Shown here one piece after another: positions 15,555-59,390 of a DNA stretch of 64,000 nt. The notes beneath the pieces are model-generated. The model was not told where the DNA came from, did no database searches, and saw only the letters and a program-made list of their open reading frames with translations. The position numbers and the translations under genes were made by a program. Numbering within the stretch: the first letter of the stretch is position 1; each line of letters starts with the position of its first letter. The stretch is from the NCBI GenBank assembly GCA_963576725.1, contig OY755252.1:47028140-47092139 (forward strand), written 5' to 3'. This DNA is from Azorinus chamasolen. Its lineage: Eukaryota; Mollusca; Bivalvia; Cardiida; Solecurtidae.

Positions 15555-15645
15555 GTCTCGCATTTGCAAACAGCTTGGATCCAGATGAGACACCGAGTTA
15601 CTCGGTGTCTCATCGGGATCCAGCCTCTTTGGTACTCGGTTTGTA
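15555..15645. repeat. Family D hairpin
   Basis: The inner arms GAGACACCGAG and CTCGGTGTCTC pair perfectly (15587-15611), between GGATCCA and GGATCC. Confidence 0.85.
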
Positions 15646-15829
15646 GTTTCTCTAATGTTTGAACGAATCAGAAGTCTGTACAAATGTAGCAGATAAGAAA
15701 TCGTGCAAACTTTATGTTTTCAGCATGAGAAGGGTTCACCTTTAGTATATTACACGTGAGCTTGTGAAACAATATTGCAAACAGTTTAGCTCCAGATGAG
15801 TAATCGAGTAATCCAGTTTGCCGTTAAGA

Positions 15830-16385
15830 TCCAGACTGTTTGATACTCATATTATCTGTTTGACACCTTCATTAGGATACAGAATGTTTGATACTCATAG
15901 GATCTGTTTGACACCTTCATTAGGATCCAGAATGTTTGAAACTCTCAGTAGAACACAGACTGTTCGACAGTCTCATTATGATCCAAACTGTTTGAAACTC
16001 TCAGTAGAACACAGACTGTTCGACAGTCTCATTATGATCCAGACTGTTTGAAACTCTCAGTAGAACGCAGACCGTTTGACATTCTCATTATGATCCAGAC
16101 TGTTTGACACTCTCATTATGATCCAGACTGTTTGACACTCTCATTAGATTCAGACTGTTTGACATTCTCTGTAGCTCTAGACTGTTTGACACTCTCATTA
16201 GCTTTAGACTGCTTGACACCCATAGTAGAACTAAGACTGTTTGGTACTTTCATTAGGATCCACGCTGTTTGATACTCTCATTAGGATCCAGATTGTTTAA
16301 CACTTTCATTAGGATTTAGACTGTTTGAAACTCTCAGTAGGGTCCAGATTGCTTGACACTCTCATTAGGATCCAGACTGTTTAAC
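15830..16385. repeat. Degenerate 30-odd-bp minisatellite derived from family D
   Basis: Units of the type GATCCAGACTGTTTGACACTC with TCATTAG or TCAGTAG spacers, repeated about 16 times. The unit equals the right shoulder of a family D hairpin, and two intact D hairpins lie just upstream. Confidence 0.85.
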
Positions 16386-16509
16386 ACGCATACTATATAT
16401 TTGAAAAGTAGTGAAATAAAGTCATCTTTCAATATGAGTTAGAATATTGGTTCTAACAGCGAAATAATTGCTTTAGGTTAATCTCTTCTCTCATATAGTC
16501 GACATTGGG

Positions 16510-16600
16510 TATATTTGCAAACTGAGCAGACCCAAACCAGACAGCTCCTGTAGGATCCATCTGATCAGGGTCTGCTCTGTCTGCTTACGGATTAGTAGAA
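16510..16600. repeat. Subfamily A-like hairpin
   Basis: GCAGACCCAAACCAGACAG / CTGATCAGGGTCTGCTCTG, imperfect, without clear ends. Confidence 0.6.
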
Positions 16601-17071
16601 ATATGATTCTAAATATTATGTAAGCCACATTTCCACCAATAGGCATTAGGTAATGCATTCTGAACATTCTGCACTCGTCTAAAAACCCCAGTATCAGAGT
16701 GAGTAATTCGGTGTGTCATCTGGATCCAAACTGGTTGCAAACGTTATCAGCGCCGGTAGAGTGCGTAATTCTAAATCAATGGGCACGTAAGATGTCCAAT
16801 TTTGGAAACATGTAGGAGTGTTTGTTGAGATTTCTTTTTACTGACAATGATTCAAAATTGCATGGTTCCGTACGGCCTAATTAGCAGATTGTAATGTATT
16901 TCCTGTTATTGTTGCAAATCAACGAATACCTTAATGTGGAAATAAGGTTACACGAGGTGACCTCGGGTATAAAGAGTGATGTTGCACGTGACCACATTAC
17001 GTCAGAAGGTACGAGTGCACTCCTTGATGATTAACTGTTACAAGCTCGTCCAAAACTTTGATATCGTCCAT

Positions 17072-17270
17072 TAACCCGTACAGTGCAGGAAAATGTCCTT
17101 TGCAAACAGTGAAGAACCAGGTGACATGATTCCCAAAGGAACCTTCTCATCAGGGTATTCACTGTTTGTCACGCTACACTAGTCTCTGAAAATCCATGAA
17201 TATTCAAGGTAAGCTTGATCTGTTTAAATATTGGAATGGTCCATTTAAACATTTAGCGTTGAAAGGGTTA
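17072..17270. repeat. Worn TTAA-type MITE
   Basis: TTAACCCGTACAGTGCA at the left and GCGTTGAAAGGGTTA at the right enclose TTTGCAAACAGTGAAGAACC...TATTCACTGTTTGTC and an ATCCATGAATATTCA block. A related copy lies at 41385-41530. Confidence 0.5.
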
Positions 17271-17276
17271 TATAAA

Positions 17277-18283
17277 TAGAGAATAATAGGTTAGTGCCGT
17301 AGATGGGACACCTTTATCCGACGAGGGGAGAAAACGTTGAGGCGAGGCTTGCCGAGCCTCAACTGTTTTCTCCCCTCGTCGGATAAAGGTGTCCCATCTA
17401 CGGCACTAACCTATTATTCGATTTATCCAGTCAATAAAGTTAAATGTCTTTTTTATAGACTCATAACACTCTTGAAATAATTTACATTGAAAATGCAGTT
17501 TTTCGATCAACGGATCCCTCCCTTTTCACTTCCATTTAGACGTAAATAGATCTAATGAGCTACCGCAGAGGAATATAGTTTCGATACTTGCATTACTAGA
17601 AGGGAAACGTGGTTGAATTTGAAAAAATAAGATAATTTGAATACAGGGTCGATAAGTTATTTCAAACAGACATGATTATATTCTCTGGTCAAATTCGAGT
17701 TACGTAGTCTCGGTTTCTATTTTTAGATAGACCTAACGTCACTCATAAATCGATGGAACTGAACAGGCTGTATTTAGGTTTATGACTATCACCGCCCCTG
17801 TAAGAGTTTATCAATCAAATTATCATGAGAGTGAAAAGAAAACATTTACTATTTACCTGTCAATCTTTGCTTCCAGGTTTGATTTTATCAAAAACGGGTT
17901 TTGCCAGCGGTGGATTAAATAAAACTGATAAATCAACGTCATTTTGTATGTGGCCTCTGTGGCGTAATCGGTAAGGGCGACGTCTCTAGAGTGATTAGAA
18001 TTAGTTTTCAGGCGCGGGTTCGAATCCAGCTGTAGCCAATTATTTTTATTTTTTCTCATTTGAATAATTCTTTTGGTGACCAAATAGATCGGTTAGATCT
18101 ATTCCATCAACATGTTTATGCATATTTACAGAAAACTAAAATAGTTCCATGGTTATAGAATCATTACGCCTATCTACTAACCTAATAAACCTTCTACTAC
18201 CGGAAGTAACCTAATAAACCTAAGTTTATTTGCACCCCCTTTATTATGTCACTAGAGAAGCCTGGTGACTGGATAAAAGATAA
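17277..18283 (+). mobile_element. Palindrome-plus-tRNA-like element, copy 1
   Basis: The first 145 bp form a near-perfect palindrome (17277-17421): AATAATAGGTTAGTGCCGTA pairs with TACGGCACTAACCTATTATT, and the pairing runs through the ATCCGACGAGG part to a small GC-rich centre. Next come TTTATCCAGTCA (17422), about 500 bp of unique body, a tRNA-like module (17952-18038), a T-rich stretch, and TGACTGGATAAA (18266), the reverse complement of the first 12 bp after the palindrome. A second copy lies inverted at 25411-26651. No transposase. Confidence 0.8.
17952..18038 (+). pseudogene. tRNA-like module with long variable arm
   Basis: A-box-like TGGCGTAATCGGT, then about 45 nt on a good B box GGGTTCGAATCC. 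The spacing and the ATTAGAATTAGTTTTC stretch suggest a type II (Ser/Leu-like) tRNA ancestor. The acceptor strands GGCCTCTG and CTGTAGCC pair only partly. T-rich DNA follows, as in a Pol III terminator. Not a functional tRNA by eye. Confidence 0.5.
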
Positions 18284-18368
18284 ATGGCAACAATCTGGAT
18301 AATATTTATGTAGGCATATTCTAAAATTTAGAACTACAGTAAACCTCTCTAAGCCGTATTTTTTATTT

Positions 18369-18568
18369 ATTCCTTTCCTCCATAGGCTATTTTAAGACCA
18401 AACATCTTTGAATTAATCTACCGAAAAGGAGTATTTACTAAAGAAATGTAAAATTATAGTATTTTGTAGTTTGAACCCATTGAAGCAAATGCTCTATTTA
18501 TCACAATGGTTTCAAGAAGTGGTTATTACAGAGGCGTAGAAAGGCGTATTTATGGAGGAAAGGGTTAA
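18369..18568 (+). mobile_element. Subfamily F MITE, palindrome half lost
   Basis: CCTTTCCTCCATAGGCTATTT at the left, then TAATCTACCGAAAAGGAG, half of the hairpin (AAATGCTCTATTTATCACAA) and the right end TATGGAGGAAAGGGTTAA. The left TTAA is not preserved. Confidence 0.7.
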
Positions 18569-18587
18569 TATAATATCGGCCGTAGAG

Positions 18588-18685
18588 ACAGGTGGCAGCT
18601 TAATGCAAAGTGAAAGTCGTGCAGAAAGCTCCTCTAGAAACCCTCTGCATGACTAATCCTGTATCAAGCAGCCACTTGCATAAAA
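18588..18685. repeat. Family E core fragment
   Basis: GGTGGCAGCTTAATGCAAAG / ATCAAGCAGCCACTTGC stem with GCAGAAAGCTCC. Terminal repeats are not evident. Confidence 0.6.
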
Positions 18686-18727
18686 ATATGTACATGTACA
18701 TTCTTCTCTACTAGAATTCCGGTTTAC

Positions 18728-18758
18728 ATGCGCGCGCGCGTATGTGTGTGTGTGTATA

Positions 18759-18808
<50 letters not shown>

Positions 18809-18843
18809 TGCGTTCGTGTGTGCGTGCGTGCGTGTGTGTGAGG
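18728..18843. repeat. (GT)n/(GC)n microsatellite
   Basis: Alternating CG, TG and CGTG units, with Z-DNA-prone composition. Confidence 0.95.
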
Positions 18844-18871
18844 GGGTGTTACTGTGTAGTACTTATTGTAC

Positions 18872-19126
18872 TTAACGCTGACACCATTACCTGTTCAATA
18901 TTCATGTAAGAAATAACAACATCGTGAATATCCGTTAGCTGACTATGTATAATGGTGCATGAACAAAACTTTCTTTTTTGATTTGACAGAAACTATAAAA
19001 TCACAGTTATGTAATTCAATACGCAAACAGAACAGACCCTGATCAGACGGCTCCTATAGGAGCCGTCTGATCTGGGTCTACTCTGTTTGCAAACGCGTGA
19101 AATGCGTTTATATGAAGGAAAGAAAT
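18872..19126 (+). mobile_element. Subfamily A MITE with perfect central palindrome
   Basis: A body (ATTCATGTAAGAAATAAC), then GCAAACAGAACAGACC with the perfect palindrome GATCAGACGGCTCC-TATA-GGAGCCGTCTGATC and its mate GGGTCTACTCTGTTTGC. The right end GAAGGAAAGAAATG has lost its TTAA. Confidence 0.8.
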
Positions 19127-19923
19127 GATTCCCCCTTTCTAAATATTAATTTAACAAACAGTTGTAAATATGTTTTACTGACAAAAATGATTTTTATGAC
19201 AAACATTTCAGATCCTGACCAAATGGTTTCCCCCTGTGTAATTTGATCTTACTCTACTGTGTTTGCAAGTGTTTTACTCGTTCCCGCACATTAAGTGTTA
19301 AATGACATTTTTAATTTTCCAATGGTATAAAAAAACAAGTTCTGTGCTAAATATTTTCAATCATGTCGTGTGGGTTATTATTATTCCTTTTTGCAGGTAA
19401 AATTTTCTTCGCTAGAAAATGTCTTCTATTTAAGAATTCAAATCTTATCCCGCTGTGAAAAATAATGTCTTTAAAAACTGGATTTGTCCTTTTTTCCGTT
19501 TTCCCTGTCTGCGGCGTATTCATGCCCGAGTTTCGCCCTTCATCCACAAACATCTCCGCTGGCTCACCACTATGCGTCGTACTCGTTTCTTGCCTCCTCG
19601 TACTCAGTGCCGTACACGGTTACTCGTGATTTCGTCTCCACGGTTTTCTCTCCGAGTTGTCCCTCCTAGTCATGCCTCCCTGAGTGCTTTCACACTCATG
19701 TTCGGATAGACTGCCTCTTCATAATTATGCTGGTGGAATCTACTAAGCACTTATCGCAGATACACAGCTCTTTTCCAATCGGGCTATGCTCTTTCGGACT
19801 CACAGTGACAGTCACAAGTCAATGTGGGCTATTGACTACTTTTCGGGAACTTCAATCTTCACAGACAGATTTTCTCAGACTCCGTGTGGGTGGGAGACAC
19901 AGAAAAGCATCTCTCAAATTTCC
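19127..19923. other. No gene; possible SINE body
   Basis: 19450-19720 is CT-rich. A CTCT-rich 84-codon frame there is not convincing. The segment left of the tRNA-like head at 19924-19997 may be the body of that SINE on the minus strand (inference). Confidence 0.4.
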
Positions 19924-19997
19924 GTGCGGACCGGGATTTGAACCCGGACCTCCGGATTGGTAGTCAAGCGCGTTACCACTAAACCACCGCTCCACCC
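19924..19997 (-). pseudogene. tRNA-derived SINE head (Gly-ACC-like)
   Basis: On the minus strand: A box GTTTAGTGGTAACGCG, an anticodon loop CTACCAA (ACC at the anticodon position), a perfect T arm CCGGGTTCAAATCCCGG, then GTCCGCAC. The anticodon stem has a mismatch and the acceptor stem is poor, so I read it as a SINE head. It is the best preserved tRNA-like sequence in the window. Confidence 0.6.
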
Positions 19998-20203
19998 TGT
20001 CCAATATTGAATGAACGAATTAATGAAATACTTCATTCAGCGAGGGTTTTCGGTTAGCCAAATGGCTAATCTACCCCGAAGCCCTCTTAATAAGCACATC
20101 TCATACATTTATAGTTAAGTACGCATGCGCAGGATTGTGAAGACGTGAAATATATACCTCTCGGAAACATGCGATTTAAAGCTTAGTTTTCTATATAATT
20201 AAA

Positions 20204-21220
20204 GTGAATGTGAATGACAGTTTTTTACATCAGATAAAAGCCCAAATGGAACTTTGTTGCAGCCTAGCAAACAAAAGAAGAGATGCAAATCGTAAACTCA
20301 AATTACCAAAACATAACACGGATAGTGAGTGCACGACCGACACGGCCTTGACTCCAAACACAGATGAACAACGAAAGTGTAATCACTACGCAAGTAAGTA
20401 AACAATAATTATGTTTCAGAAATTATGAAGCCACAAACCAATATTACAACCCCAGTTATAAGTTTTAGTCACGACAACCTATTCGCAATGATGTCAGCAA
20501 CACAATCTACGCTCGAATCATCAACACCGCCGGCATGAGCGGCTGCTATCATAGCCAATATCAAATCTATAAAACGCTGAGTGGCAAAAATTGATAATGT
20601 TGACGAAGCTATAAACAAATGATTAACAGAATGTTTGAAATGGAGATGAAATTGAACAAATTAGAAAGCAAAGTAGAAGAATGTGAGTCGGCGGGACACT
20701 CTGAAAGTTGAACTAAATGTGCAAAAAATGAAATCAAGAAACTCAAACAGTCATGTAATCAAATGGAGAAAAATATCCAACAGCACTATAAGCAAGAAAA
20801 GGCCATGAATGACAAACTTGAAGTCTTAGAATCCAGATATATGAGGGAAAATTCAAGTTTATATGGGCTAAAGGACCAAGACAACGAATATTGCGAACAT
20901 ATAATAAAATCCTTTATCACAAACGCACTAGAATTCTGGAATCATAATTCTGGACAGAACCCACAGACTTCGCTCACTATACTCGCATAAACCCAGACCG
21001 ATCGTGACCAAGTTCCATTGCTACTCTGATAGGGAGTAACTAAACAACTAAAGCGAAATGCCTTTCACCCTATTACAAAAGAGGAAGAAGGAAATGGCAG
21101 CACAGTTCGCATGGCAGGGAACAAACTATATGTCATTGACGTATTAATCAAGAAGTTCGTTGACGATAAAGTGTGTGATGTAAACCCGGACACAACAAAC
21201 AACAGTTAAGAAGGTCACGA
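20204..21220 (+). pseudogene. LINE ORF1-like protein, broken (L1-like)
   Basis: Spread over shifting frames, the translation shows the order of LINE ORF1 proteins with a central RRM-like domain. First comes an N-terminal stretch (20204-20401), then a coiled-coil-like region rich in Lys/Glu (about 20600-20830, e.g. EMKLNKLESKVEECES). The conserved block ESRYMRENSSLYGLKD...EYCEHIIKSFI follows (20826-20920), and then a RPIVTKFHCYSD-like segment near 20995-21040. Several stops and frameshifts interrupt it, so no product is expected. It normally binds LINE RNA in the ribonucleoprotein. It is followed directly by endonuclease remains. Confidence 0.7.
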
Positions 21221-22320
21221 GAAAGCCTGTTCTTTATTATCTTGGAAAATTAATGGGCTAACTAGAAGAAAAAAAATGGAGACTCAGATATTACGACATT
21301 GTTATTCTTACATAAACCTGGTTCAGAAAGAGCTGACGTTAACTTAACAAAACATCTAATACCTGAAAAGTTCGCTACAAGGGCGGAATGTCTCTTTACT
21401 TAAAAAAACATATAAAAGATGCAATAACAATTCTTGAACGAGATCAACGCGGTATTATCTGGTTAAAATTATCCAAATATTTTTTTTTATTTTTTTTAAG
21501 AAAATATACTTCTATGTGTTACTTACATCCCACCAAGAAACTAGAACGTATATGATCAAAACGTCAGATCTTAATTACATTCTAGATCATAATGTCTATA
21601 TCAACAATTATTACATCGAACTGTCAAACGATGTTTAATCCCTCCAAGTGCTAATAAAGATCATGTGACAGATACACAGGACCACCGCTTATTCGAGCTT
21701 TGCCAGAGTACTTCACTGGTTATCGGTTATGGAAGGTTATACAGTGCAGGCGATTATACATACCATTATATAAGTGGGACAAGCACCGCGGATAATTTAA
21801 TTTTAAACCCACACGATTTTAAACATGTAAATGATTTGAATATTTTAGATCAAAACAAAATTTCTGATCATTGCGGGATGGCGATTAAATTTACCAGCGT
21901 TTTAACAAAATTATTTTACGCAGTAGAAATAATTAATGATGAAATGTATATCAAGCCAGATGATTAAAAACAGAAACACTCAAAGATTTATTCAAATATA
22001 AACGAGAATAAATCATTTCAATGAATGATTCCCTTAACACGGATGATATAGAAAAAGACAACTGAGATATTTATTTTATGCAGCAGAATGCGTTAGAAAT
22101 ATTTGGGAAAAACACAATACAAAATATAAAGTATATCACCCTGCTCACAACAAATGGTTTAAGGAAACAATGTTACAATGCTAGAAAAGACTTCAAAAAG
22201 GCAAGAAATATTTACGTACGGAATAAAACTGAAGAAAACAGATAAGTTTTTGTAAGTAAAAAATCCACATATAACAGAATAAAGTGGATTCAGAAAACAG
22301 CATTTAAACAAATCTAGCGT
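21221..22320 (+). pseudogene. LINE ORF2 fragment: AP-type endonuclease domain, truncated
   Basis: The clearest part is an open stretch at 21665-21967: TDTQDHRLFELCQSTSLVIG, a GDYTYHYISGTSTADNLIL block and ISDHCGM, the SDH motif near the end of exonuclease-endonuclease-phosphatase domains of non-LTR elements. Upstream, a CVTYIPP-like block (about 21510-21535) in another frame fits the middle of the same fold. Downstream (22130-22250) come HNKWF and ARKDFKKARNIYVRNKTEEN-like pieces typical of the linker before the reverse transcriptase. Homology stops near 22320, before any reverse transcriptase. Many stops; an old, dead copy. Confidence 0.75.
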
Positions 22321-22403
22321 GACTCGTAATTGGGTAGATCAAATCCCAATAGGTCACTAGTACAAGTACCTAACATTAACATAGTTACCTGTACCTTTAA
22401 TTA

Positions 22404-22952
22404 AAGTACAAAAATGAGTCATGCAGGAAACACTACATACAGAACAAACACTCACCCGAACGGCAACACAAGGAAACAGCAAATGTACATAACTAGAAAA
22501 AACAACAAGAGACGCACAAAGACAAAACAAACATACAATAGGAGGAAGATGGAAGTACCGCCTTGGAACGGTCAGTGACAAAAGTCACTGGGGGGAGGGG
22601 GGTAAACCGGTTTATGGGCGCCCAACCTCACTCTTATTCCATCCCCACCCTAAAAGACAAACAGTGTAAATAAACGTATCCCCTCTCCGACTAATCTACA
22701 ACAACCGCGACGGCAAATACAATGGTAAAGTGCATGTATAACGAAAAAACATTTAATTGAACATACTGTATCCACCTATCGCTAGTGTACTCAATGATTG
22801 AGCTGCAAACAGAGTAACTGCTGAAAAGTAATAAAGGGTACGACAAAAATGAAATAGTACAGATATCCGACGTTCTCCTTCCATTTCTAGATTTAAGAGG
22901 TCGCCTTCATAGAGTACTAAACCTTTCTTGTCGGCGTACATGCAAAGAGGCC
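22404..22952 (-). mobile_element. Unclassified dispersed element, copy 1
   Basis: On the minus strand it begins GGCCTCTTTGCATGTAC and ends CTCATTTTTGTACTT. It is nearly identical to 59511-60051, which lies on the other strand. Similarity starts and stops abruptly at the same two points, so these are element boundaries or a captured segment. The part after the shared stop codon contains GTTGGGCGCCCATAAACCGG and looks like a 3' untranslated region; I suspect a retrotransposon 3' end but cannot name the clade. Confidence 0.7.
22753..22941 (-). CDS. 62-residue reading frame conserved in two repeat copies
   Basis: From MYADKKGLVLYEGDLL to AIGGYSMFN, ending at TAA. The copy at 59522-59710 differs at two residues (Leu/Pro and Ala/Thr) and has the same stop. 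I recognise no domain. It may be the C-terminal end of a longer transposon protein cut at the element boundary. Similarity may reflect recent copying, not selection. Confidence 0.3.
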   Translation of the reverse strand: MYADKKGLVLYEGDLLNLEMEGERRISVLFHFCRTLYYFSAVTLFAAQSLSTLAIGGYSMFN

Positions 22953-23431
22953 AGCGTGATTGCCAACTGTAAAAGGGTTCACAACCAAACATGCAGTATG
23001 TTGTAGTACTACAGGATCATATCCCTTTTGAATGAATTGTTTAACACATTTGATGAACAAAGTGAGAAAATTGGTATGTCCAATAATTTTACGAAATTTG
23101 TAAATCACATCACCATAACATTCAGGATGTGAAATACCGTGTCAAACCTGAATCAATTGCTCAGTCGACATAGCGTTTGTTTTCAAGTTTTGGTTCGCAG
23201 GCTCGATTCCAGGATTTGTGGTCGCATGCTCGATTTCCAGACTCCAAATATCGTTCAAGTAGCCCCCTGGCTTAGTGGTCAGCATATCATGGTAGGTCTT
23301 TAACTAGTTTATCAGTTTCAAGAAAGTGCGACAGGATGCAGGCTAAATTCGACACTGTATACCCTGCTCAATGATTCTGAATAAACACCTCCACCTCAAC
23401 CATACACATATTACACTTTGCCTTCCACCCA

Positions 23432-24262: not shown

Positions 24263-24339
24263 ATTTTTAATATGTAAATACAATGTTACCTTAAACCATC
24301 GGTATAAGGCTAAGCCTTAATCATTATTATAATAAGCGC

Positions 24340-31499: not shown

Positions 31500-32516
31500 A
31501 GAGAGAGTACATTTGAAATTCTGCAAGACGATATTAGGCGTCAGACAAACTTCGTGTAGCGACGTAATCTATGGAGAGCTAGGACGCTACCCGCTATATA
31601 TAAATAGATACGTTCAAATATTGAAATACTCGTTTAAATTATTGCATACAGGTAATATTATTCTGAAAAATGTATATCGTCATGCTTGTGAACAATGCCT
31701 AAAAGGAAAAGATAATTGGGTAAAGCGAGTTAAGGCACTGCTTGATGAATTTGCTTTTTCAGATATATGGGTACAACCGGAGAATGTACATGTTAAATCT
31801 TTTATTGTGTTGTTTAACCCTTTCCCTGTTCTGTGTTTATTCCAAATTCCAATACCTACTGAACATTCATTAACAAAATAGTTATAAAGAAATATGGAAG
31901 GTGGAACATTGTAAACATTTTAGAAAGCATTGAAGCATCAAATTCTATAAGCAAACAGAGCAGACCCTGATCAGACGGCTCATCTAGGAGCCGTCTGATC
32001 TGGGTCTACTCTGTTTGCAAATGCGTGAAAACACGTTTACATGAGGGAAAAGGTTAAACAACGGGTAATTGATAACTTTTATCAAAAATGGTATTCTGAT
32101 GTAGAGTCGAATAAAGTTCTCATTACACTTTTATTCATATTAAACCGACTTTCGGTTATGAAAATTATCTTAATAGAATTGTTAATAAACGTTTAAAACA
32201 GTGCTTGACGAGAATCCGCCTAATTATCTTCTCACAACTTGCGTATCAAGTCTGAAAGATATGGTTGAGATATATTAGAATATGTCAGTTGTGTAATGTA
32301 CATGATATTGAAGACGAGTATCATTTCATAATTATATGTAAAGCATTTGAAGATTTAAGAGCTAAATATATAAAAAAAACTTATTATATACTTAGACCAA
32401 GCATGAACAAATTTATTGAATTACTCCCCACCGATAATAAGCCAGCGCTTATTAACTTATGTAGAATTATAAGTTTTGCGAATTCCAAGCGCAATGGTAT
32501 CCGATTGACAGTATAA
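31500..32516 (+). pseudogene. LINE ORF2 C-terminal fragment with CCHC knuckle
   Basis: The first part (31513-31815) reads KFCKTILGVRQTSCSDVIYG, ELGRYPLYINRYVQILKYSF and DNWVKRVKALLDEFAFSDIW, blocks I know from the region after the reverse transcriptase in bivalve LINEs. The frame is cut by a B MITE (31814-32057) and resumes as a VIDNFYQKWYSDVES-like stretch at about 32064. Later (32265-32516) comes CQLCNVHDIEDEYHFIIIC, a C-x2-C-x9-H-x4-C knuckle, then FEDLRAKYIKKTYY and a NLCRIISFANSKRN tail. Frameshifts near 32150-32260 make it non-functional. No reverse transcriptase core is present, which suggests a 5'-truncated insertion. Confidence 0.75.
31814..32057 (+). mobile_element. TTAA-flanked hairpin MITE, subfamily B, inside LINE coding sequence
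   Basis: TTAA at 31814-31817 and 32054-32057; ends CCCTTTCCCTGTTC and GAGGGAAAAGG. B body (CAATACCTACTGAACATTC), then GATCAGACGGCTC / GGAGCCGTCTGATC. Removing the element and one TTAA joins the flanks so that the codons read Leu-Phe-Lys-Gln-Arg-Val-Ile in the frame of the LINE protein. Confidence 0.95.
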
Positions 32517-40980: not shown

Positions 40981-41184
40981 CAGTAAAACCTCTCTATAAC
41001 GACCACTAAATAGTGTTAATTAGTTGGTATTTAGGGCAGGTGGCTGCTTAACGGAATGTAATGGGTAAATCAGAACGATCCTATAGGAGCGTTCTGTTTT
41101 ACTTTCACCTTGCTTGAAGCAGCCACCTGCCTTTACACAAACTATTTAATGTAATTTAGTGGCCGTTATAGAGAGGTTTTACTG
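40981..41184. mobile_element. Family E MITE, CTCTCTATAACG-type ends
   Basis: CAGTAAAACCTCTCTATAACG at the left, CGTTATAGAGAGGTTTTACTG at the right, exact reverse complements. The stem is GGCAGGTGGCTGCTTAA / TTGAAGCAGCCACCTGCC, and the inner arms CAGAACG / CGTTCTG differ from the usual CAGAAAG / CTTTCTG but still pair. Confidence 0.9.
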
Positions 41185-41535: not shown

Positions 41536-41852
41536 CAGTGCTCCCTCCCTACAACGGCCCTCTCAATAACGATTCCCACCTTACAACAACGCATGTCACT
41601 TTTTTCCATCGTATTGTCTTTGTGCCTCTATCAAACCCTATGTTGTGACCACTCTTTAGAATCGTCACTAAAGAGTGGTCACAACATAGGGTTTGATTGA
41701 TGCATAACGGTTTTAGTTCTCGAACTTCACTTGATATGGGGATCTGCAAACAAGCTAATTGTGTTTGATTTTCCCTCCCTATAACAACTTCCTCTGAACA
41801 ACACATACAATCTTCGTTTCCCAAAGGGTGTCGTTGTAGAGAGGGAGCACTG
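41536..41852. mobile_element. 317-bp TA-flanked MITE with a family G hairpin inside
   Basis: CAGTGCTCCCTCCCTACAACG at the left and CGTTGTAGAGAGGGAGCACTG at the right (one base differs in the junction), TA on both sides. In the middle (41624-41700) is ATCAAACCCTATGTTGTGAC with its mirror GTCACAACATAGGGTTTGAT. Confidence 0.9.
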
Positions 41853-45227: not shown

Positions 45228-46907
45228 AACTAATACGAATGTCTTGTGGGAGTAAATAAGTATCTTGAACGGAAACTAATACTAGTTAATGTCTTATGGG
45301 AGTAAATAAGTATCTTGAACGGAAACTAATACTAGTTAATGTCTTATGGGAGTAAATAAGTATCTTGAACGGAAACTAATACTAGTTAATGTCTTATGGG
45401 AGTAAATAAGTATCTTGAACGGAAACTAATACTAGTTAATGTCTTATGGGAGTAAATAAGTATCTTGAACGGAAACTAATACTAGTTAATGTCTTATGGG
45501 AGTAAATAAGTATCTTGAACGGAAACTAATACTAGTTAATGTCTTATGGGAGTAAATAAGTATCTTGAACGGAAACTAATACTAGTTAATGTCTTATGGG
45601 AGTAAATAAGTATCTTGAACGGAAACTAATACTAGTTAATGTCTTGTGGGAGTAAATAAGTATCTTGAACGGAAACTAATACTAGTTAATGTCTTATGGG
45701 AGTAAATAAGTATCTTGAACGGAAACTAATACTAGTTAATGTCTTATGGGAGTAAATAAGTATCTTGAACGGAAACTAATACTAGTTAATGTCTTATGGG
45801 AGTAAATAAGTATCTTGAACGGAAACTAATACTAGTTAATGTCTTATGGGAGTAAATAAGTATCTTGAACGGAAACTAATACTAGTTAATGTCTTATGGG
45901 AGTAAATAAGTATCTTGAACGGAAACTAATACTAGTTAATGTCTTATGGGAGTAAATAAGTATCTTGAACGGAAACTAATACTAGTTAATGTCTTATGGG
46001 AGTAAATAAGTATCTTGAACGGAAACTAATACTAGTTAATGTCTTATGGGAGTAAATAAGTATCTTGAACGGAAACTAATACTAGTTAATGTCTTATGGG
46101 AGTAAATAAGTATCTTGAACGGAAACTAATACTAGTTAATGTCTTGTGGGAGTAAATAAGTATCTTGAACGGAAACTAATACTAGTTAATGTCTTATGGG
46201 AGTAAATAAGTATCTTGAACGGAAACTAATACTAGTTAATGTCTTATGGGAGTAAATAAGTATCTTGAACGGAAACTAATACTAGTTAATGTCTTATGGG
46301 AGTAAATAAGTATCTTGAACGGAAACTAATACTAGTTAATGTCTTATGGGAGTAAATAAGTATCTTGAACGGAAACTAATACTAGTTAATGTCTTATGGG
46401 AGTAAATAAGTATCTTGAACGGAAACTAATACTAGTTAATGTCTTATGGGAGTAAATAAGTATCTTGAACGGAAACTAATACTAGTTAATGTCTTATGGG
46501 AGTAAATAAGTATCTTGAACGGAAACTAATACTAGTTAATGTCTTATGGGAGTAAATAAGTATCTTGAACGGAAACTAATACTAGTTAATGTCTTATGGG
46601 AGTAAATAAGTATCTTGAACGGAAACTAATACTAGTTAATGTCTTATGGGAGTAAATAAGTATCTTGAACGGAAACTAATACTAGTTAATGTCTTATGGG
46701 AGTAAATAAGTATCTTGAACGGAAACTAATACTAGTTAATGTCTTATGGGAGTAAATAAGTATCTTGAACGGAAACTAATACTAGTTAATGTCTTATGGG
46801 AGTAAATAAGTATCTTGAACGGAAACTAATACTAGTTAATGTCTTATGGGAGTAAATAAGTATCTTGAACGGAAACTAATACTAGTTAATGTCTTATGGG
46901 AATGATA
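45228..46907. repeat. 50-bp satellite, about 33 copies, very homogeneous
   Basis: The unit reads GAACGGAAACTAATACTAGT, TAATGTCTTATGGGAGTAAA, TAAGTATCTT. The first unit is shorter and both edges are diverged; inner units are almost identical. The only repeated variant I see is GTCTTGTGGG at 45641 and 46141, exactly ten units apart. Confidence 0.97.
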
Positions 46908-49878: not shown

Positions 49879-50105
49879 TTAACCCATTTGCTCCCACGAT
49901 CCCATTTATGGGACGTAGACAAACAGTGTAGACTCTGATCAGACGCCGCATAATGCGGCGTCTGATCAGTCTACACCGTTTGCTGATAGGAAATTCAATA
50001 TAAAACAAAACAAAAATGAGCATTTAGACCAGACATCCCTTAGATAAAAGATAGACTTATCCAATATATAAGCATGGAAGAATCCACTGGGAGCAAATAG
50101 GTTAA
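49879..50105 (+). mobile_element. TTAA-flanked hairpin MITE, CCCATTTGCTCCCA ends
   Basis: The left TTAACCCATTTGCTCCCA mirrors the right TGGGAGCAAATAGGTTAA. The hairpin near the left end (49920-49985) is nearly perfect: GATCAGACGCCGCA / TGCGGCGTCTGATC, with TAGACTC and AGTCTA outside. The arms CGCCGCA/TGCGGCG replace CGGCTCC/GGAGCCG of A and B, and pairing is kept. The flank GTCTTGCATTAA resembles a family E right stem. Confidence 0.9.
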
Positions 50106-51480: not shown

Positions 51481-51494
51481 GGCGGTTGAGTGAT

Positions 51495-51572
51495 TACCTA
51501 CGCAAACAGTTTGGATCCAGGTGAGACGCCGAGTAACTCGGCGTCTCAACCACTTCAAACTGTTTGACACCC
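51495..51572. repeat. Family D hairpin, perfect core
   Basis: Arms GAGACGCCGAG / CTCGGCGTCTC (51523-51547) with CAAACAGTTTGG and CAAACTGTTTG outside. Confidence 0.85.
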
Positions 51573-51734: not shown

Positions 51735-51939
51735 TACATTATAACCTGTCTTAAGCGACCTTATACTGATTAGACACAGTCATCTTGAAAAGCTGGTGGT
51801 TGCTTAATACAGGAAAAACGTAGTAGAGAAAACTCCTGCAGAAGATTTTTGCATTAATTGTGACCTGCATTAAGCTATATTTCCTTACATACCTATTATT
51901 AGACCTATTTTGATGGTTGCTTAATACAGGATTTACCGT
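51735..51939. mobile_element. Family E MITE, TTAAGCGACC-type ends
   Basis: Left AACCTGTCTTAAGCGACC, right GGTTGCTTAATACAGGATTTACCG, stem GGTGGTTGCTTAATAC / GCATTAAGCTAT. Confidence 0.65.
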
Positions 51940-52135
51940 AGTATTTTATCAGCTTCTTCTGTAGCTTGCAATGAGTAAGATTGAATAATATAATAAAATA
52001 ACGTTAAGCATTATCCCGCAATAGCGACTGGACTTGGTAAATAGTTTCTCAAAAGCTCGATCGAATCGGAAGTAGTCAACTGTGCAAATGATACAATGTC
52101 AAGCATGTATATTTGTGTGCGTGAGTGAGGGGGTG

Positions 52136-52377
52136 TTAACCCTTCTCTTGCTGAATTCTAAAATGCATTTCTCCTTCTTTACCCATGCCCTGTTACATAT
52201 ATCTTCACTGTGTACACATAGTTCGCTGTGCAATCACTTCTGTGGAGTGCACTGGTTGCACAATCAACTTCTAAATAGTGCAGACCCAAATGAGACAGCT
52301 CTTGCAGGAGCTGTCTCATCTGGGTCTTCGCTATTTACAGGTAGGTATATTGACGTGAATAGCAAGCGAAGGGTTAA
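52136..52377 (+). mobile_element. TTAA-flanked hairpin MITE, CCCTTCNCTTGCT ends
   Basis: TTAACCCTTCTCTTGCT / AGCAAGCGAAGGGTTAA. The hairpin is ATAGTGCAGACCCAAATGAG and CTCATCTGGGTCTTCGCTAT with core arms ACAGCTC / GAGCTGT. Another set of arms with pairing kept. Confidence 0.9.
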
Positions 52378-52399
52378 GGATTAATGAAGCTTCGCATCT

Positions 52400-52880
52400 A
52401 GTAGAAATTCAAGCACTAAAAATGATATAGCGTGATTAAATCCTTTGATTGAACATTGGTATCAAGTGACTAGTAAAAGTTATACAGAAATGTTATAACT
52501 TCATGGAAAGCTTCTTCATTGATTTTCCCTTAAGCTCTTTACTCCATTAAGAGAGGCCTTTTGACACATTTTAAAACAATGTAAAACCATATCTATGGGA
52601 GCCGTCTGATCATGGTCTGCCCTGTCTGATTATGGAATTATATAGATATGATATTGACAGTGTTTGCCATGGCCAGCAATTTCTTTGCTCATGTACAAAT
52701 ATCATAAAATTTAATTGGTGTTCATAGTGTAGTTGTATCTTAAATGACAATTCTGTGCAATATCGCATGTTTCAACGAAAAGAAATAGACGGTCACCATC
52801 AAGAAGGTTTACTAAAAGTTAAGTAAAGGTCACGCTTGATGGAGAGTTCAATAACTCACATGTCTTATACATTTGTAACT
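52400..52880. other. No gene; worn hairpin repeat
   Basis: CTCTTTACTCCATTAAG (52552), GGAGCCGTCTGATCATGG (52600) and GTCTGATTATGGAATTATAT are remnants of an A-like element. Confidence 0.5.
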
Positions 52881-53060
52881 CCTATCCCGCTACCTTAATC
52901 TTTAACCTGCTACCCTAACGCTTATACCGGTACCTTAACCCTTACCTCGCTACCATAACCTTTATCCTGGTACATTAACCCTTATCCCGCTACTATAGCT
53001 ATATTAATCCTTATATCGCTACCTTAACCTTTATCCCGTAAGCGTAACCATTATCTCGCT
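52880..53060. repeat. Degenerate 24-bp repeat
   Basis: Units like CTTATCCCGCTACCTTAACC, about seven. Confidence 0.85.
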
Positions 53061-53083
53061 ATCCGCGACCTGACTCACATGTT

Positions 53084-53150
53084 TACAAACTTCTTGGATA
53101 CAGGTGAGATGCCGAGTAACTCGGCATCTCATCAGGACCATCGCTAGTTT
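53084..53150. repeat. Family D hairpin with covarying arms
   Basis: Arms GAGATGCCGAG / CTCGGCATCTC (53106-53130) pair perfectly. Compared with 51523-51547, C is T in the left arm and the facing G is A in the right. Confidence 0.85.
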
Positions 53151-53502
53151 ACACTCGATCAATGGTTTCTCATGACCTTGATCAAATCAGGTTCAAATTT
53201 TACCAGACATTAATTTTTCACTGCTGGAAAATGGTTAACAGAAAGGATGGTTTAGTATTTTCACTGTATATGTTAACACTATAGAATGCCATAATTCAAT
53301 GACTTCTTGCATGTTCATATTCGGCAAAATGTTTTGGGTACTGGAAGTGCATTCTATATTCAACCAAAAACATTAGGAATATTCTTGCTGAATAAAATCT
53401 ACGCAATGGTAATAATCAGATCGATGAGATTGTGTGTGTTAACAGACTGTAGCACTTATACCTTTTTTCCGTTCTCTTTTTCAGTGTAAATAGAATTATG
53501 TA

Positions 53503-53719
53503 CAGTAAAGTCTCACTGATGCGACCGCTCTAAAGAAGTCTAATTCTGAATTTTAAAACAGGTGAAAGCGTAATGCAGAACAAATCGTATGCAGTAAACA
53601 CCTATAGGTGTTGTTTGCATTACGTTTGCCCTGAATTAAGCAACCACGTGGTTTTACAGAATCCTATATTAATGAGATGTGCGTATGTTCTTATAGCGAG
53701 ATTTAGCGAGATTCTGTTG
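53503..53719. mobile_element. Family E MITE with altered core arms
   Basis: TA-flanked. CAGTAAAGTCTCACTGATGC at the left, GCGAGATTCTGTTG at the right. The core is GCAGTAAACACC-TATA-GGTGTTGTTTGC, where AACACC/GGTGTT replaces AGCTCC/GGAGCT. Confidence 0.75.
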
Positions 53720-54048
53720 TAATAGAAGTACAAGTGTCATATTTCATAAAGTTTTGTTTTTCTTTTATTCCGCGATAACTATTGATATCCCTAACTTTTT
53801 AAATATAACATTTCCAGTTGTTTGATTCCATTTCCCCGCTATGGTAATAAATATACTATAACATCACAGGCATAAGGTTATCTATATGAGGACATTCTCG
53901 CCAATTCATCAATATTAAATGTAGCATATCAGACAAACTACTGATGACGTCACAGCTAGTGTCACCACAGGCCTTGGGTGAAATACCTGAATCACGATGA
54001 ATAATTGAACAATATGAATGTATAGGTGACATTTACAATAATGAAGCA
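53720..54048. other. No gene seen
   Basis: AT-rich stretch without a recognisable element. Confidence 0.45.
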
Positions 54049-54205
54049 CAGGTAAGATGCGTAAATTAAAATATTTTCAAAAACAACTTCTTTATTTCTC
54101 CAACAAACACTATGTTGTGACCAATCTTAAGAATCGTCACGAAGAGACGATTCTAAAGAGTGGCCACAGCATAGGGTTTGGTGGAGAAATGACGATTTTA
54201 GTATC
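54049..54205. repeat. Family G hairpin element
   Basis: GTAAGATGCGTAAATTAAAA, CACTATGTTGTGACCA, CTTAAGAATCGTC / GACGATTCTAAAGAGTGGCC, ACAGCATAGGGTTTGGTGG. Confidence 0.8.
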
Positions 54206-54388
54206 TGAGCACGCACATTTATCTGTAGCACTGACGTATGGATATACATCTTATGTCATATGCCAGTAATTATTTCATCGTGCAAATCGTGGGCTAGTCA
54301 TGATTGTCTTGATGTGGAAGGTATTGCAACAATACAGCCGAATTTCAATTACATTGTAAACTGCTTTAAAATGCATACTACAGGAAAT

Positions 54389-54601
54389 TCTAACACCGTC
54401 CCTGTTTGATGTAATTAATAAAGGCATCATGAACATTTATTAATTGAATTTATATAATAACATACGCACATATGATGTTTTGGTATTTGAAGAAACTGTA
54501 GTCAGTTCTATTATACTTTCCTAAGCAAACCGAGCAGATATGGATGTACTCTATTTGCAAAGGCAGGGACAAGCGTTTTTTGTATTAGAGAGAGCGTTAA
54601 T
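54389..54601 (+). mobile_element. Subfamily A MITE, hairpin deleted
   Basis: CACCGTCCCTGTTTGATG, GGCATCATGAACATTTATTA, AAGCAAACCGAGCAGA, then TATTTGCAAAGGCAG and GAGAGCGTTAA. Confidence 0.65.
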
Positions 54602-55364
54602 AATCCATTGGCCTATCGATGCAGTACAGTGAAAAAATATTAATAATGACTACAATAACCAGGTACTAACATTATTTATTAAAATAAATTTGCTGCATCT
54701 CTGAGACTAATCAGGTGTATTTTGATGTTATTGATTCGAAAAACGGAGTTATATTATCCATGTTTTACATAACAAAAAGTATAAAAACAACAACATATTT
54801 CAAAGAAAATACTACTTTACAGTAATGAGTTTGTGTTGGAATATATCGGCCAAATGACACATCTATAAGCGAGAAATATTTACTTAAAGAAAATATAAGC
54901 TCAAAAATGCATAACCTATAACACAATCGCATAAGTAGAAACTATACATGTATTTCTTTTTCATAATTGTGGAAGTTATTATAGTAATTATACACTTTAT
55001 CAAATGTATACTATTATCATAAATATAAAACTGTAATATACTTGCGATATTATATTTTCTGAAGCACAAAACTACTAAAGGAGTCCGTTGATCTATCAAA
55101 AAGAAGAACATACGAACGATATATTAATATAAAACACACATTCGTGTTCGCTATATTATGTGTCGGTTGTATGTTTTCTCTAATATAAGAAATCGTGTAA
55201 TAAGTAACCTGTTTCCTTGAGATAATACGCGTATAGATCAGAATATTGCCATGGAAAACACCCATAGATAAAACGTGATGTATATACATTTATTTAGCAG
55301 TAACAGTTGGTGAGACATATCGCAATAAATAGCAATATTGTTTAAAATAGAGCAACCGATAAAG
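54602..55364. other. No gene seen
   Basis: AT-rich; frames up to 79 codons on the minus strand have no motif. Confidence 0.5.
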
Positions 55365-55545
55365 GTGCGTACCCAAACACTAAAATCGCCATTTCTCCAC
55401 CAAACCATATGTTGTTACCACTCTTTAGAATCATCTCTTCGGGACGATTCTAAACAGTAGTCACAGCATAGGATTTGATGGAGAAATAAAGGATTTATTC
55501 TCGAAAATGTTTTAATTTACGCATCTTATCTTGACCTTTGTTAAA
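55365..55545. repeat. Family G hairpin element, opposite orientation
   Basis: TTTCTCCACCAAACCATATG, ACCACTCTTTAGAATCATC / GGACGATTCTAAACAGTAGT, then AAAATGTTTTAATTTACGCA, the reverse complement of the outer part of 54049-54205. Confidence 0.8.
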
Positions 55546-56440
55546 CGATAAAAGCGCGAGATATTTCGCAACAAATGATGTTTTTGTTTTTGTTTGTATG
55601 AAGATACTTACATTTTCCATCTATAACACTTCATCAAAATAACCAAGTACGTCTTCCACTAAAGAACATTACAAAATCAAACATGTTCACTGATTACGTT
55701 CCAATTTTTTTCCTGTATGTTTCCCATTAATTTACCACTGATGTTCTGAAACAACTAAACGTTTACTTGAATAGTAGTAACATTTTAATGACCGGCCCAA
55801 TCCTCTCATGCAATTAGTATCTATTGTGACTTTTATCGATAAATCTTAAAGCCACAGCAGCAGAGGTTTTCCCTTGACGCCCATGGGCGACCACAGCGAA
55901 TTAGAAACCCTTCTAGCACCATTGATCCTGGAACGATTGCAACACCGAATCTGCCAGTGTTGTGACAATCCGGTATTGAGCCGTGCAAATATCAATAAAT
56001 TCCACACCGCGATTTGTTAAGTTTGTTCCAGGTCCGTGATAACCCGATAATTCTTGTAGATATTAGTAAGGTTAATATCTAAACCCTTTCCTTCGTGTAG
56101 ACGACTTTTGGTACCTTTACAAGCACAGTAGCTCATGTAGGAGCCGTCTGATCATGATCTGTTTTGTTTTCTTAAGGGATAATTTGTATATTCTGAAGTT
56201 TCCTGACGTTAATTGTAATTGTAAAACCCCAGTCCATGAATATTCCTGTATCAACAAATTCCTAATTATTCATTGTTGAGAAAGTTAATCTGAATGCTTG
56301 GTTTTATTTATACTTTATTTTAAGCTCTGAATACCCAACATATGGCGTTCTGTGTTATATCTCAAAGCAATATGATACAAATACAACTAATCTAGGAAGT
56401 GTATGGTTTGCTCAGAGGATTTGCCGGTACATTTCGACGG
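55546..56440. other. No supported gene; GC-richer block at 55850-56050
   Basis: 55850-56050 is richer in G+C than its surroundings. On the minus strand it gives about 45 codons ending in a stop. I recognise no domain and see no good splice sites. An A-like remnant (GGAGCCGTCTGATCATG) lies at 56140. Confidence 0.4.
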
Positions 56441-56614
56441 ATACACTAATTGACTACCACATTACTGTACACAAATACTTATTTATTAAGCAGTCACGTG
56501 TTTTTGACCATTAACAAAACTATTTATTTATTAAGCATGCATATGGTTTTTTTTTAAAAAATTAAACCAATATTTATTCATTAAGGAGTCAAGTGCTTTA
56601 TACATGTTAACAAT

Positions 56615-56826
56615 TTAACCCATTACCTCATAGGCTATTTTTAGACTATGCCTCATTGAATTAATATACCAAAAAGGAGCATTAACTAGAGAAAAGGAAA
56701 ATTTAAGAATTTTGTAGTTTGAAACCATTGTGATAAAAAGAGCATTTGCTCCTATAGGAGCAAATGCTGTTTTTATCACAATGGTTTCACAAAGTCGTCA
56801 AAATTCAATATAAGGGAATGGGTTAA
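56615..56826 (+). mobile_element. TTAA-flanked hairpin MITE, subfamily F, complete
   Basis: TTAACCCATTACCTCATAGG at the left, AAGGGAATGGGTTAA at the right. Palindrome GAAACCATTGTGATAAAAAG, AGCATTTGCTCC-TATA-GGAGCAAATGCT, TTTTATCACAATGGTTTC. Confidence 0.95.
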
Positions 56827-57197
56827 ACCAATACTTATCCATTAAGCATGCAAATGTTCTTTACATCTTAATGAATACTTATTCATTAAGGGGTTAAAGG
56901 TGTTTTAAACAAATTCTACACGAATACGCCCCATTTAAGCCCTCTCCTGTTTTAGGAAGTCACATCAATAACTTTCCCGTTAAGCAGTCACACGTTCTGT
57001 ACGATTTACATTAGTACTAGTTTAGTAAGCAGTCATGTGCGTTTGCCAATATACATACTTATTCATTAAGCAGTCACATGTTTTAACAATATAAACCCAT
57101 TTTATCCATTTAGAGATGACGTGTTTTAACATTTTACATCTTAATCTAATTATTCAGCAGTCGTATGTGTTCACCAATTTATACTAATACTTATTCA

Positions 57198-57407
57198 TTA
57201 ACCCTTTCGACGCCAAATTTCTAATTGTCGTCTGCAAACTAATTTTGTTAAATCATTCGGTATAATAAGGAAATGAGATAAATAAATGCAAATTTCAAAT
57301 GAATAAATCACATATATAGAAATAGAATTTGAGACAAAAAGCGAAGTCCCTGGGATTGCATTATATGTCGTGGTGCATTTATGCGACATCGGCGGTGAAA
57401 GGTTTAA
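57198..57407 (+). mobile_element. TTAA-flanked MITE, subfamily C variant without hairpin
   Basis: TTAACCCTTTCGACGCCAAA at the left, GGCGGTGAAAGGTTTAA at the right. The interior is AT-rich with no palindrome, unlike 7340-7523. Confidence 0.75.
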
Positions 57408-59025
57408 GCATACACACGTTTAACATTTAGACACGTATTTATTCACGAAGCAGGCAGATGTTCTTAACACGTTATACCGATTCTCAAGCATTAGGGAATT
57501 ACATGTTTCAAATAAAATGTACACCAATATTTACCCATTAATCAGTCACATGCGTTTAAAACAAACTTTACACCAGTGCTAATACACTAAGCAGTCACAC
57601 GTTTTTTAACAATTTACACCAATATGTTTTCAAGTTAGCAGTCACATGTTCTGAACAATGTACGCCTATACTTTTTATTAAGCAGTCACACGTTTAAACA
57701 GTTTAAACCAATATGTATTAATTAAGTCACGTGTTTTCACCAATTTACTCCAATACTGATTCATTAAGCAGTCGCACTTTTAACAATTTAAAAAATGATT
57801 TATTCATGAAGCAGGTAGATGTTCTACACAATTTATACTGATTCTCAATTATTGAAGAATTACATGTTTTAAACAATTTTTTTCCAATATTTGCCCATTA
57901 AGCAGTTCACCAGTACTAATCCACCAAGTAGTCACATGTTTTTATCAATTTACACCAATGTGTTTTCATAAGGCACCCAGACATTGGTAAAGCACACAAT
58001 AGTTATTCATTAAGCATTTTAACGTTTTTAATAATTTACAACAATACTTGTACACTAAGCAGTCGCATGTTTTTGACAAGTTACACCTTTACTAAGTCAT
58101 TAAGCAGTCACATGTTTTAATGTGTCTGTGTTTGTTTACCATTTTAACCAATATTTATTTATTAATCAGTCATAATTTCTTAACAATTTACAACAATACT
58201 CATTAATTGAGTGCAATTGAGTGATCGTCATAGTTTCTAATAGTGTTATCTTTAACATGTTGGGGGAAACTTAAGATGTCTAGCTTTCTTTTATAGACTA
58301 ACAGTGCTTTTTAGCTCACCTGAGCCAAAGGCTCAAGGTGAGCTATTGTGACCGCCTGTCGTCCGTCTGTCCGTCTGTCCGTCTGTCTGTCTGTCCGTCT
58401 GTCCGTCTGTCCGTCCGTCTGTCCGTTCACTTTTATTTTAAATGACTTCTTCTCCTAAACCACTGGGAGGATTTCAACCAAATTTCACAGAAATGTACCT
58501 TAGGGTGTCCTCTATCAGGTTTGTTCAAATCATGACCCCGGGCAAAATATGGCCCCGCCCCACTACTTTTACAGGTTGTTTTTTTAAATCTTTAAAAATC
58601 TTCTTCTCTGAAACCACAATTTCTAGAGCTTTGATATTTGGTATATAGCATCATCTAATGGTCCTTTACCAAGTTTGTTAAAATGATGACCCCCGGGCCA
58701 AAAATGGCCCTGCCCTGGGGCTTGTAGTTTTTACATAGACTTATATAGGGAAACCTTTAAAAATCTTTTTGTCTGAAACCACATAATCTAGAGCTAAGAT
58801 ATTCGGTATGAAGCATCACCTAATATACCACTACCAGGTGTGTTCAAATAATGACCCCTGGACCAAAAATGGTCTCACCCTGGGGTTTTATGCTACTTAA
58901 CATCAGAATCTGTAACAGTTAAAAGGTAATTTCCTCACAGTTATTTCCCTTGTCCCATCAACATAGCCATAAGGGACAAAGGGAGATAACTGCATTGGAG
59001 TTCTAGTATGCCAGAATAGTGATTC

Positions 59026-59205
59026 TATTTATAACTATTTATAATAAAATGTTGAAGCTGAATCAGTGTAGCTGTTTTAGAAGGCATAGAAACAGATCTA
59101 TCAAATTCCATTAGCAAACAGCAGACCCTGATCCTATAGGAGCCACCTTATCTGGGTCTACTCTGTTTGCAGATGCATGAAAACAAGTTTATATGAGGGA
59201 AATTA
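59026..59205 (+). mobile_element. Subfamily B MITE, left end lost
   Basis: B body remnants (AATAAAATGTTGAAGC, GTAGCTGTTTTAGAAGGC), ATTAGCAAACAGCAGACC, TGATCC-TATA-GGAGCCACC and GGGTCTACTCTGTTTGC. Confidence 0.75.
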
Positions 59206-59309
59206 ACTTCAGATCCTAAACTGCAGTTCAAAGGTTATAGCAATGGGCAGTAAAATCTCTCCAGGTCAATGCATGACTCTTTGCACGCTAGTGGTGAAGC
59301 TGTGATTAC

Positions 59310-59390
59310 CTATGCAAACAGTTTGGATCCAGATGAGAGGCCGCATACTGCGGCCTCTCATCAGGATCCAAACTGTTTGTCATCTTAACC
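59310..59390. repeat. Family D hairpin with covarying arms
   Basis: Perfect arms GAGAGGCCGCA / TGCGGCCTCTC (59335-59359), with GCAAACAGTTTGGATCCA and GGATCCAAACTGTTTG outside. Confidence 0.9.

Follow-up and report, generated by a model that had tools for sequence, protein, structure and literature searches.

How do the two arms of a hairpin stay complementary to each other when their sequence differs from copy to copy? The question is raised by a stretch of 64,000 nucleotides from the bivalve Azorinus chamasolen (contig OY755252.1, positions 47,028,140 to 47,092,139), referred to throughout as the window, which contains 21 palindromes (arms of at least 10 bases, loop of at most 8, overlapping centres merged) where simple arithmetic gives about one by chance. 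The hairpins studied here are modules—inverted repeats of 67–94 bases in each family—within very abundant miniature inverted-repeat transposable elements (MITEs) of several families, namely A, D, D2 and F3 with TTAA ends, and E and E2 with TA ends. An initial annotation of the window had pointed to arms that change in pairs, and had ascribed them either to copying from arm to arm or to selection for a hairpin. According to the present results, the paired differences sit mainly between subfamilies, and the copies, after their insertion, decay mostly one-sidedly and fastest at CpG. As the paired changes between subfamilies lie far above chance, the explanation considered here as probable is that selection acts on the source elements and favours arms that match apart from certain fixed mismatches, the resident copies decaying with little or no correction.

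Sequences compared

The window is part of contig 18, in a genome of 1.72 Gb with 137 contigs (G+C 36%), the sampled contigs 1–19 being 64–122 Mb each. It was analysed within a 353 kb sample that also comprises 20 stretches of 10 kb taken at random and 29 loci of 3 kb chosen by similarity, from which the window's own copy (L001) was excluded; a D query served to choose these loci, which therefore over-represent D. Hairpin copies were located by blast with six hairpin queries, yielding 200 matches for A, 106 for D, 26 for D2, 82 for E, 26 for E2 and 55 for F3 in the sample, 68 of them within the window (A 29, D 16, D2 1, E 13, E2 4 and F3 5).

Paired change between subfamilies

Clustering of the 286 rows of A, D and D2 gave five clusters of at least three members (100, 68, 17, 11 and 10, with 80 rows left aside), and that of the 78 rows of E and E2 gave three (21, 17 and 14, with 26 left aside). 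In the consensus hairpins of the five TTAA subfamilies, both sides are changed at 15 of the 34 pairs, compared with 5.9 in shuffled and 1–2 in slid arms, and a single side at one. Paired cells amount to 91.7% (shuffled 78.9%, slid 35–43%) and the covariation score reaches 0.412 (0.147 and 0.031–0.069, respectively); the paired changes thus exceed both kinds of control at the subfamily level only, with five consensus rows, and these controls differ from a phylogenetic null. Taken pairwise, the TTAA subfamilies differ at 3–11 paired columns versus 0–2 one-sided ones (chance 6e-5 to 5e-11), as exemplified by A and D2 with six paired and one one-sided (column 11), A and D with nine and two, and D2 and D with eleven and two. 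The same applies to E1, E2 and E3, where 5–9 paired columns were counted versus 1–3 one-sided (chance 6e-8 to 4e-13), i.e. nine and one between E1 and E2, and five and two between E1 and E3.

These changes surround positions that do not pair at all. Column 18 is mismatched in all five consensus hairpins (A, D2, A3, A4 and also D) and column 11 in four of them (A, D2, A3 and A4), with paired changes flanking them on both sides, and both E1 and E3 keep a T·T at column 10, beside a paired change at column 9. The differences in the tip (columns 28–34) may represent one event, since they are contiguous; the paired-change columns 2, 6, 9, 14 and 22 are, however, located further out on the arms. Changes from C-G to G-C and from A-T to T-A are among the differences between consensus arms, the blocks AAA.AG and CCTGAT.AGA are invariant across the five subfamilies, and the consensus arms of the E2, F3 and A5 copies are perfectly matched. 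It should be pointed out here that paired change is by itself no proof of folding.

Decay within single copies

One-sided changes dominate within single copies, in line with the premise of the initial annotation that neutral decay breaks pairs one arm at a time. Counting all columns in the copies that scored above a cut-off (A, 124 of 200; D, 76 of 106; D2, 15 of 26; E, 40 of 82; E2, 20 of 26; F3, 42 of 55), the A copies exhibit 732 one-sided changes, 63 complementary two-sided ones (32.5 expected) and 49 non-complementary two-sided ones, the corresponding numbers being 378, 44 (25.8) and 45 for D, 332, 55 (27.4) and 34 for E, 99, 21 (7.9) and 2 for E2, and 158, 4 (2.9) and 2 for F3; the complementary excess is concentrated in few columns. 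With the CpG columns and the subfamily-marking columns, variable in both arms, removed and the six sets pooled (A 100, D 68, D2 17, E 40, E2 20 and F3 42 copies), there are 1,021 one-sided, 27 complementary two-sided (19.0 expected) and 29 non-complementary two-sided changes.

The exact 28-base hairpin core of the A type, GATCAGACGGCTCC-NNNN-GGAGCCGTCTGATC, occurs at 46,077 places genome-wide, its four loop letters varying freely among the first 50 listed. Column 18/51, which is T·T in A, is retained as such in 41,558 of these otherwise perfect copies (90.2%), with T-A or A-T in 3,351 and other states in 1,168. At the non-CpG column 23/46, otherwise perfect A copies throughout the genome are changed on one side in 992 cases and on both sides in 75; among the first 50 of the 75 listed, 25 are complementary (C-G 11, T-A 11, G-C 3) and 25 non-complementary (T·G 7, C·C 7, C·A 5, G·A 3, G·G 3). 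As to the inner stem of the 124 A copies, the mismatch load is 0.156 in the 15 copies paired at column 18 and 0.169 in the 104 with T·T. The T·T also gives an orientation to the loop, and in the 99 A copies examined in this way TACA was found 20 times and its inverse TGTA once, TCTA 11 times and TAGA never, AACA four times and TGTT never, i.e. the inversions expected of template switching were not seen for the commonest asymmetric loops. Neither paired change inside single copies nor erasure of mismatches, both tested as signs of hairpin maintenance by template switching, was borne out, save for a possible minority contribution.

The CpG columns have to be treated separately. In A, one member of the CpG pair is changed in 32 copies, both in a complementary manner in 12 and both non-complementarily in 4; in D, these numbers are 21, 7 and 2. 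On trees built from the flanks only (102 A and 66 D copies; 200 label shuffles), the paired states at A 27/42 and at D 27/41—the latter being the GACACC state—are scattered, requiring 26 changes versus a shuffled mean of 25.7, and 22 versus 21.3, respectively. Column A 9/60 does not follow its tree either (14 versus 14.8), A 26/43 does so weakly (33 versus 37.5; 0 of 200 shuffles), and D 9/59 (C-G versus T-A) clearly follows it, with 16 changes against a shuffled mean of 29.7 and none of the 200 shuffles as low. At 26/43 the one-sided T form was counted 11,322 times genome-wide and the paired TG/CA form 8,757 times, compared with about 700 expected under independence without age differences, and the TG/CA pair is therefore probably largely an inherited sublineage.

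Probable selection on sources, and the alternatives

Under selection on the sources, the families would be fed by few source elements, in which one-sided changes of the module would lower amplification, so that the lasting sources would be those with matched arms; matched arms and fixed unpaired positions would then persist together as the sequence drifts. The other proposal of the initial annotation, copying from arm to arm, is considered here as a process that acts on resident copies, by template switching or by the repair of mismatches in cruciforms, and makes the paired changes. Its mechanism has been published for RNA genes (PMC8794818), and several observations favour it or weigh against the reading preferred here. 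The pooled complementary doubles are slightly in excess (P 0.049, with a 95% upper limit of the excess at 1.9% of changed cells). The 75 doubles at column 23/46 stand against 5.3 under simple independence, and the 25 complementary ones among the 50 listed against 18–20 expected; half of those listed are, however, non-complementary, and age differences together with a small C-G sublineage with decaying new CpGs could explain the excess. Changes restoring pairing at the T·T make up 3,351 of 4,519 (74%), whereas T->A accounts for 34 of the 73 T changes in a stem sample, an excess of about 1,250 copies (2.7% of 46,077) that may be due either to small sublineages or to correction on rare occasions. 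Where column 18 is paired, A copies also carry fewer outer mismatches than those with T·T (0.089 versus 0.148), and their complementary doubles are more numerous (17 in 15 copies versus 19 in 104). Two kinds of loops have no orientation among the 99 A copies (TAAA 4 : TTTA 4, TATG 2 : CATA 2), and the strand counts of wobble pairs show a weak and inconsistent bias (A 180:231, D 99:76, D2 8:7, E 95:69, E2 26:33, F3 37:38). In addition, selection on the sources is deduced from sequence patterns, with controls other than a phylogenetic null. Resident arm copying was nevertheless rejected as the main cause and appears improbable, given the persistence of one-sided changes, the retention of T·T in nine of ten otherwise perfect copies and the similar inner mismatch load of copies with and without pairing at column 18. 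Of the 17 doubles mentioned above, 11 fall in three A5-type copies, and the commonest loops, including the two most frequent asymmetric ones, are not inverted, which bears on interstrand switching only. Column 11 is paired in seven of the 15 copies paired at column 18, the three A5-type ones included, versus 14 of the 104 with T·T. Arm-to-arm correction in resident copies is, in summary, a small minority process at most, for which a few percent is possible.

Copying confined to the founding of a new source element, so that a subfamily starts with both arms derived from one of them and then decays, would explain without selection why the consensus arms are perfectly matched in E2, F3 and A5. 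It is nonetheless unlikely, because columns 11 and 18 stay mismatched amid paired changes, E1 and E3 retain their T·T one base from such a change, and A5 does not simply reproduce one arm of A, its T at column 11 matching the right arm of A and its T at column 18 the left one. A rather more serious, albeit still doubtful, alternative takes the arms as two half-sites of a coevolving protein—a transposase or a host factor—with no hairpin formed at all. The covariation of an inverted repeat is identical whether its arms pair or are read separately, the two invariant blocks agree with this reading, and transposase-bound subterminal imperfect palindromes are known from piggyBac and piggyBat (PMC11707139). 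A match of 33–47 bp, reaching the freely varying four-base loop, is, however, long for a half-site, so that a folded DNA or RNA hairpin is slightly preferred, and the same tip is found with two end classes. An RNA with a preferred strand was rejected in the absence of a consistent wobble bias. The selection for a hairpin proposed by the initial annotation is favoured as regards matched arms in source elements, owing to the paired subfamily differences, whether these arms fold or serve as protein half-sites. That the paired changes are an illusion created by CpG decay on both arms is hardly tenable: the scattered states at A 27/42 and D 27/41 agree with it, and it is accepted for GACACC and probably accounts for GATGCC, but it is refuted in general by the consensus differences of the C-G to G-C and A-T to T-A types, as well as by the surplus of TG/CA at 26/43, itself probably largely a sublineage.

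Individual hairpins of the window

The palindromes named in the initial annotation were all found in the sequence at, or a few bases from, the positions assigned to them. The observation as a whole was partly upheld: the matched arm changes are real, but that arms remain self-complementary across copies was not confirmed as a generalization, well-paired copies having been picked. Among the 68 window copies, all 12 pairs below the loop are present in five, one is absent in 11, and two or more are absent in 52 (fitted, with gaps taken as unpaired). Most cases cited in the annotation represent separate subfamilies (D2, A4/A5, E2) or arms that have both decayed at CpG (GACACC and likely GATGCC).

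In its family D, two families had been mixed. The D copy at 15566–15632 (+) with GACACC/GGTGTC possesses a perfect inner stem (15584–15614) and a paired state at the CpG column, that at 51502–51567 (−) with GACGCC/GGCGTC has the consensus inner stem and an outer stem broken on one side, and that at 53085–53152 (+) with GATGCC/GGCATC carries a CpG-type pair at column 26/42 and a decayed outer stem. The arms annotated at 15,587 and 53,106 are the two CpG derivatives of GACGCC, which for GATGCC means likely CpG decay of both arms. The hairpin at 59314–59380 (+) combines a D-type stem with a GCCGCATACTGCGGC tip (GAGGCC/GGCCTC), a tip class shared by one further D-type copy (L015) in the 353 kb sample. 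By contrast, the hairpin GACAGCTC/GAGCTGTC at 52271–52338 (+), annotated as D at 52,292, belongs to D2, a separate TTAA family with its own ends and interior, several copies of which are identical across the hairpin.

Among the A-type hairpins, the copy at 19023–19090 (+) with the CGGCTCC/GGAGCCG tip exhibits the T·T at column 18/51, and the one at 31951–32018 (+) a single-side change beside the loop. The CGCCGCA arms (49,937) contrasted with them are present too, but on another subfamily, the A-type hairpin 'A5' with the GCCGCATAATGCGGC tip (49919–49983, −), in which columns 11 and 18 are also paired. Concerning family E, all the arms compared exist; AACG/CGTT (41,080), however, belongs to E2 (41036–41130, −), located within a MITE ended by TA and CAGTAAAACC, whereas AAAGCTCC is of the E1/E3 type and forms the tip of an E3-like hairpin with a perfect 35-bp stem (10679–10772, −). 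The E-type hairpin at 53558–53651 (−), with the AACACC/GGTGTT tip (53,585), bears two paired changes in that tip; it is the sole copy with this tip in the 353 kb sample and an isolated candidate, either for arm copying or for membership of a rare sublineage. A further TTAA family, F3, is represented at 56718–56791 (−), sharing the GCTCCTATAGGAGC tip on an unrelated stem. The possibility, raised by the initial annotation itself, that arm variants are separate clades holds for D 9/59, D2 and E2, the last two having interiors of their own, but not for the GACACC state, which is scattered on the tree; GATGCC is represented by few copies.

Anatomy and abundance of the MITEs

Element consensus sequences, built from the better copies (13–45 per family), are about 200–270 bp long, with TTAA or TA at their ends and in high copy number, as befits MITEs. 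Those of A, D2 and F3 start with TTAACCC and finish with GGGTTAA, D being less clean, and those of E and E2 are flanked as TA-CAGTAAAACCTC..GGTTTTACTG-TA. The hairpin is positioned near one end in A, near the other in D and centrally in E. Strict TTAA-type ends on both sides were found in 25 of 81 copies of A, 3 of 20 of D, 11 of 14 of D2 and 14 of 29 of F3, and strict TA-type ends in 2 of 35 of E and 5 of 15 of E2, many hairpin copies thus having one or both strict ends missing. Conversely, 60 of the 75 TTAACC..GGTTAA candidates in the window and the random stretches contain one of the hairpins; among the 15 without, at least one is an F3-type element overlooked by the queries. The A type reaches 115 matches in 200 kb of random sequence, i.e. 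about one per 1.7 kb, and a pairing scan of the same 200 kb revealed 85 long hairpins, of which 63 carry GCTCC, GCTCA or GGAGC close to the tip. A survey of transposable elements in bivalves (PMC10294476) attributes a considerable share of genomes to MITEs.

The ends of A, D2 and F3 follow what we take to be the piggyBac-type pattern (TTAA target, CCC..GGG ends), and the genome contains 110 piggyBac-transposase matches, several with stop-free open frames and with equal scores at different places. No MITE-type TTAACCC..GGGTTAA ends or clear match to the terminal inverted repeats were, however, seen in 0.85–1.2 kb on each side of three of these 110. Kolobok, presumably likewise TTAA-targeting, is an alternative candidate partner. 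For E and E2, the label Tigger/pogo-type (TA target, CAGTAAAACC ends) is assumed by resemblance of the ends only; a difference lies in their central 94-base hairpin, the tip of which is that found in the TTAA families. The end sequences of interest for autonomous partners are TTAACCCTTT and CAGTAAAACC.

Some other repeats were observed as well: a 61-bp palindrome of another family, perfect and with a loop of 1 base (L047:4251–4373); a further hairpin family with a GTGACCACTCTTTAGAATCGTC stem lacking the GCTCC tip (41630–41697, L045 and L047); and two tandem arrays, one of 43-bp units up to 99–100% alike, giving overlapping long open frames (4551 to ~6700), the other of nearly identical 50-bp units (45088 to ~47000). 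At gathering scores, Rfam recognized one tRNA in the window, the hairpins matching no known Rfam RNA, and an exact-pattern search of viral, bacterial and archaeal DNA collections (viral_contigs, genome_contigs) gave 0 matches.

Shared tips

The tip GCTCC-NNNN-GGAGC, with 104 matches at a loop of 2–6 bases, is found on unrelated stems in A, D2, E, E2 and F3, being thus common to TTAA-ended and TA-ended MITEs. A-type and D-type stems can also bear a second tip, GCCGCATAATGCGGC (49935–49969, 59332–59362, L010 and L015), as if tips were exchanged as a single contiguous piece. It may tentatively be suggested that one hairpin module with a GCTCC-NNNN-GGAGC tip, partly with fixed mismatches, is selected in both end classes as a transferable cis-element aiding amplification via a common host factor, the arms drifting in step. 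The 16-base tip sequence was absent from the literature searched, and related searches gave no recognised description of the module.

Relation to known systems and significance

Whether stems are matched by selection or by arm copying is a long-standing puzzle in print, and the nearest published idea is that of template-switch mutations creating or maintaining hairpins (Monttinen and Loytynoja 2022; PMC8794818). The question asked there and the expected signs—paired change and loop inversion—are the same as here; in the present MITE copies, however, these signs are rare, and about 90% of the copies that are otherwise perfect keep the mismatch. The palindromes bound by the piggyBac cysteine-rich domain (PMC11707139) resemble the MITE modules in being imperfect and placed inside the ends of TTAA elements, but they are 19-bp sites, whereas the modules are inverted repeats of 67–94 bases with covarying arms.

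With 46,077 otherwise identical, presumably neutral core copies, nine in ten of which have the T·T, a direct ceiling is set on correction: the mismatch is restored in about 7% of copies, about 2.7% beyond the share due to the mutation spectrum. Since the lineages of the same families nevertheless drift in pairs, something would act at the source and hardly on the copies. The tip common to the two MITE end classes points to a shared, testable requirement, and a genome this rich in repeats lends itself well, as a natural experiment, to testing how the arms of DNA hairpins remain complementary.

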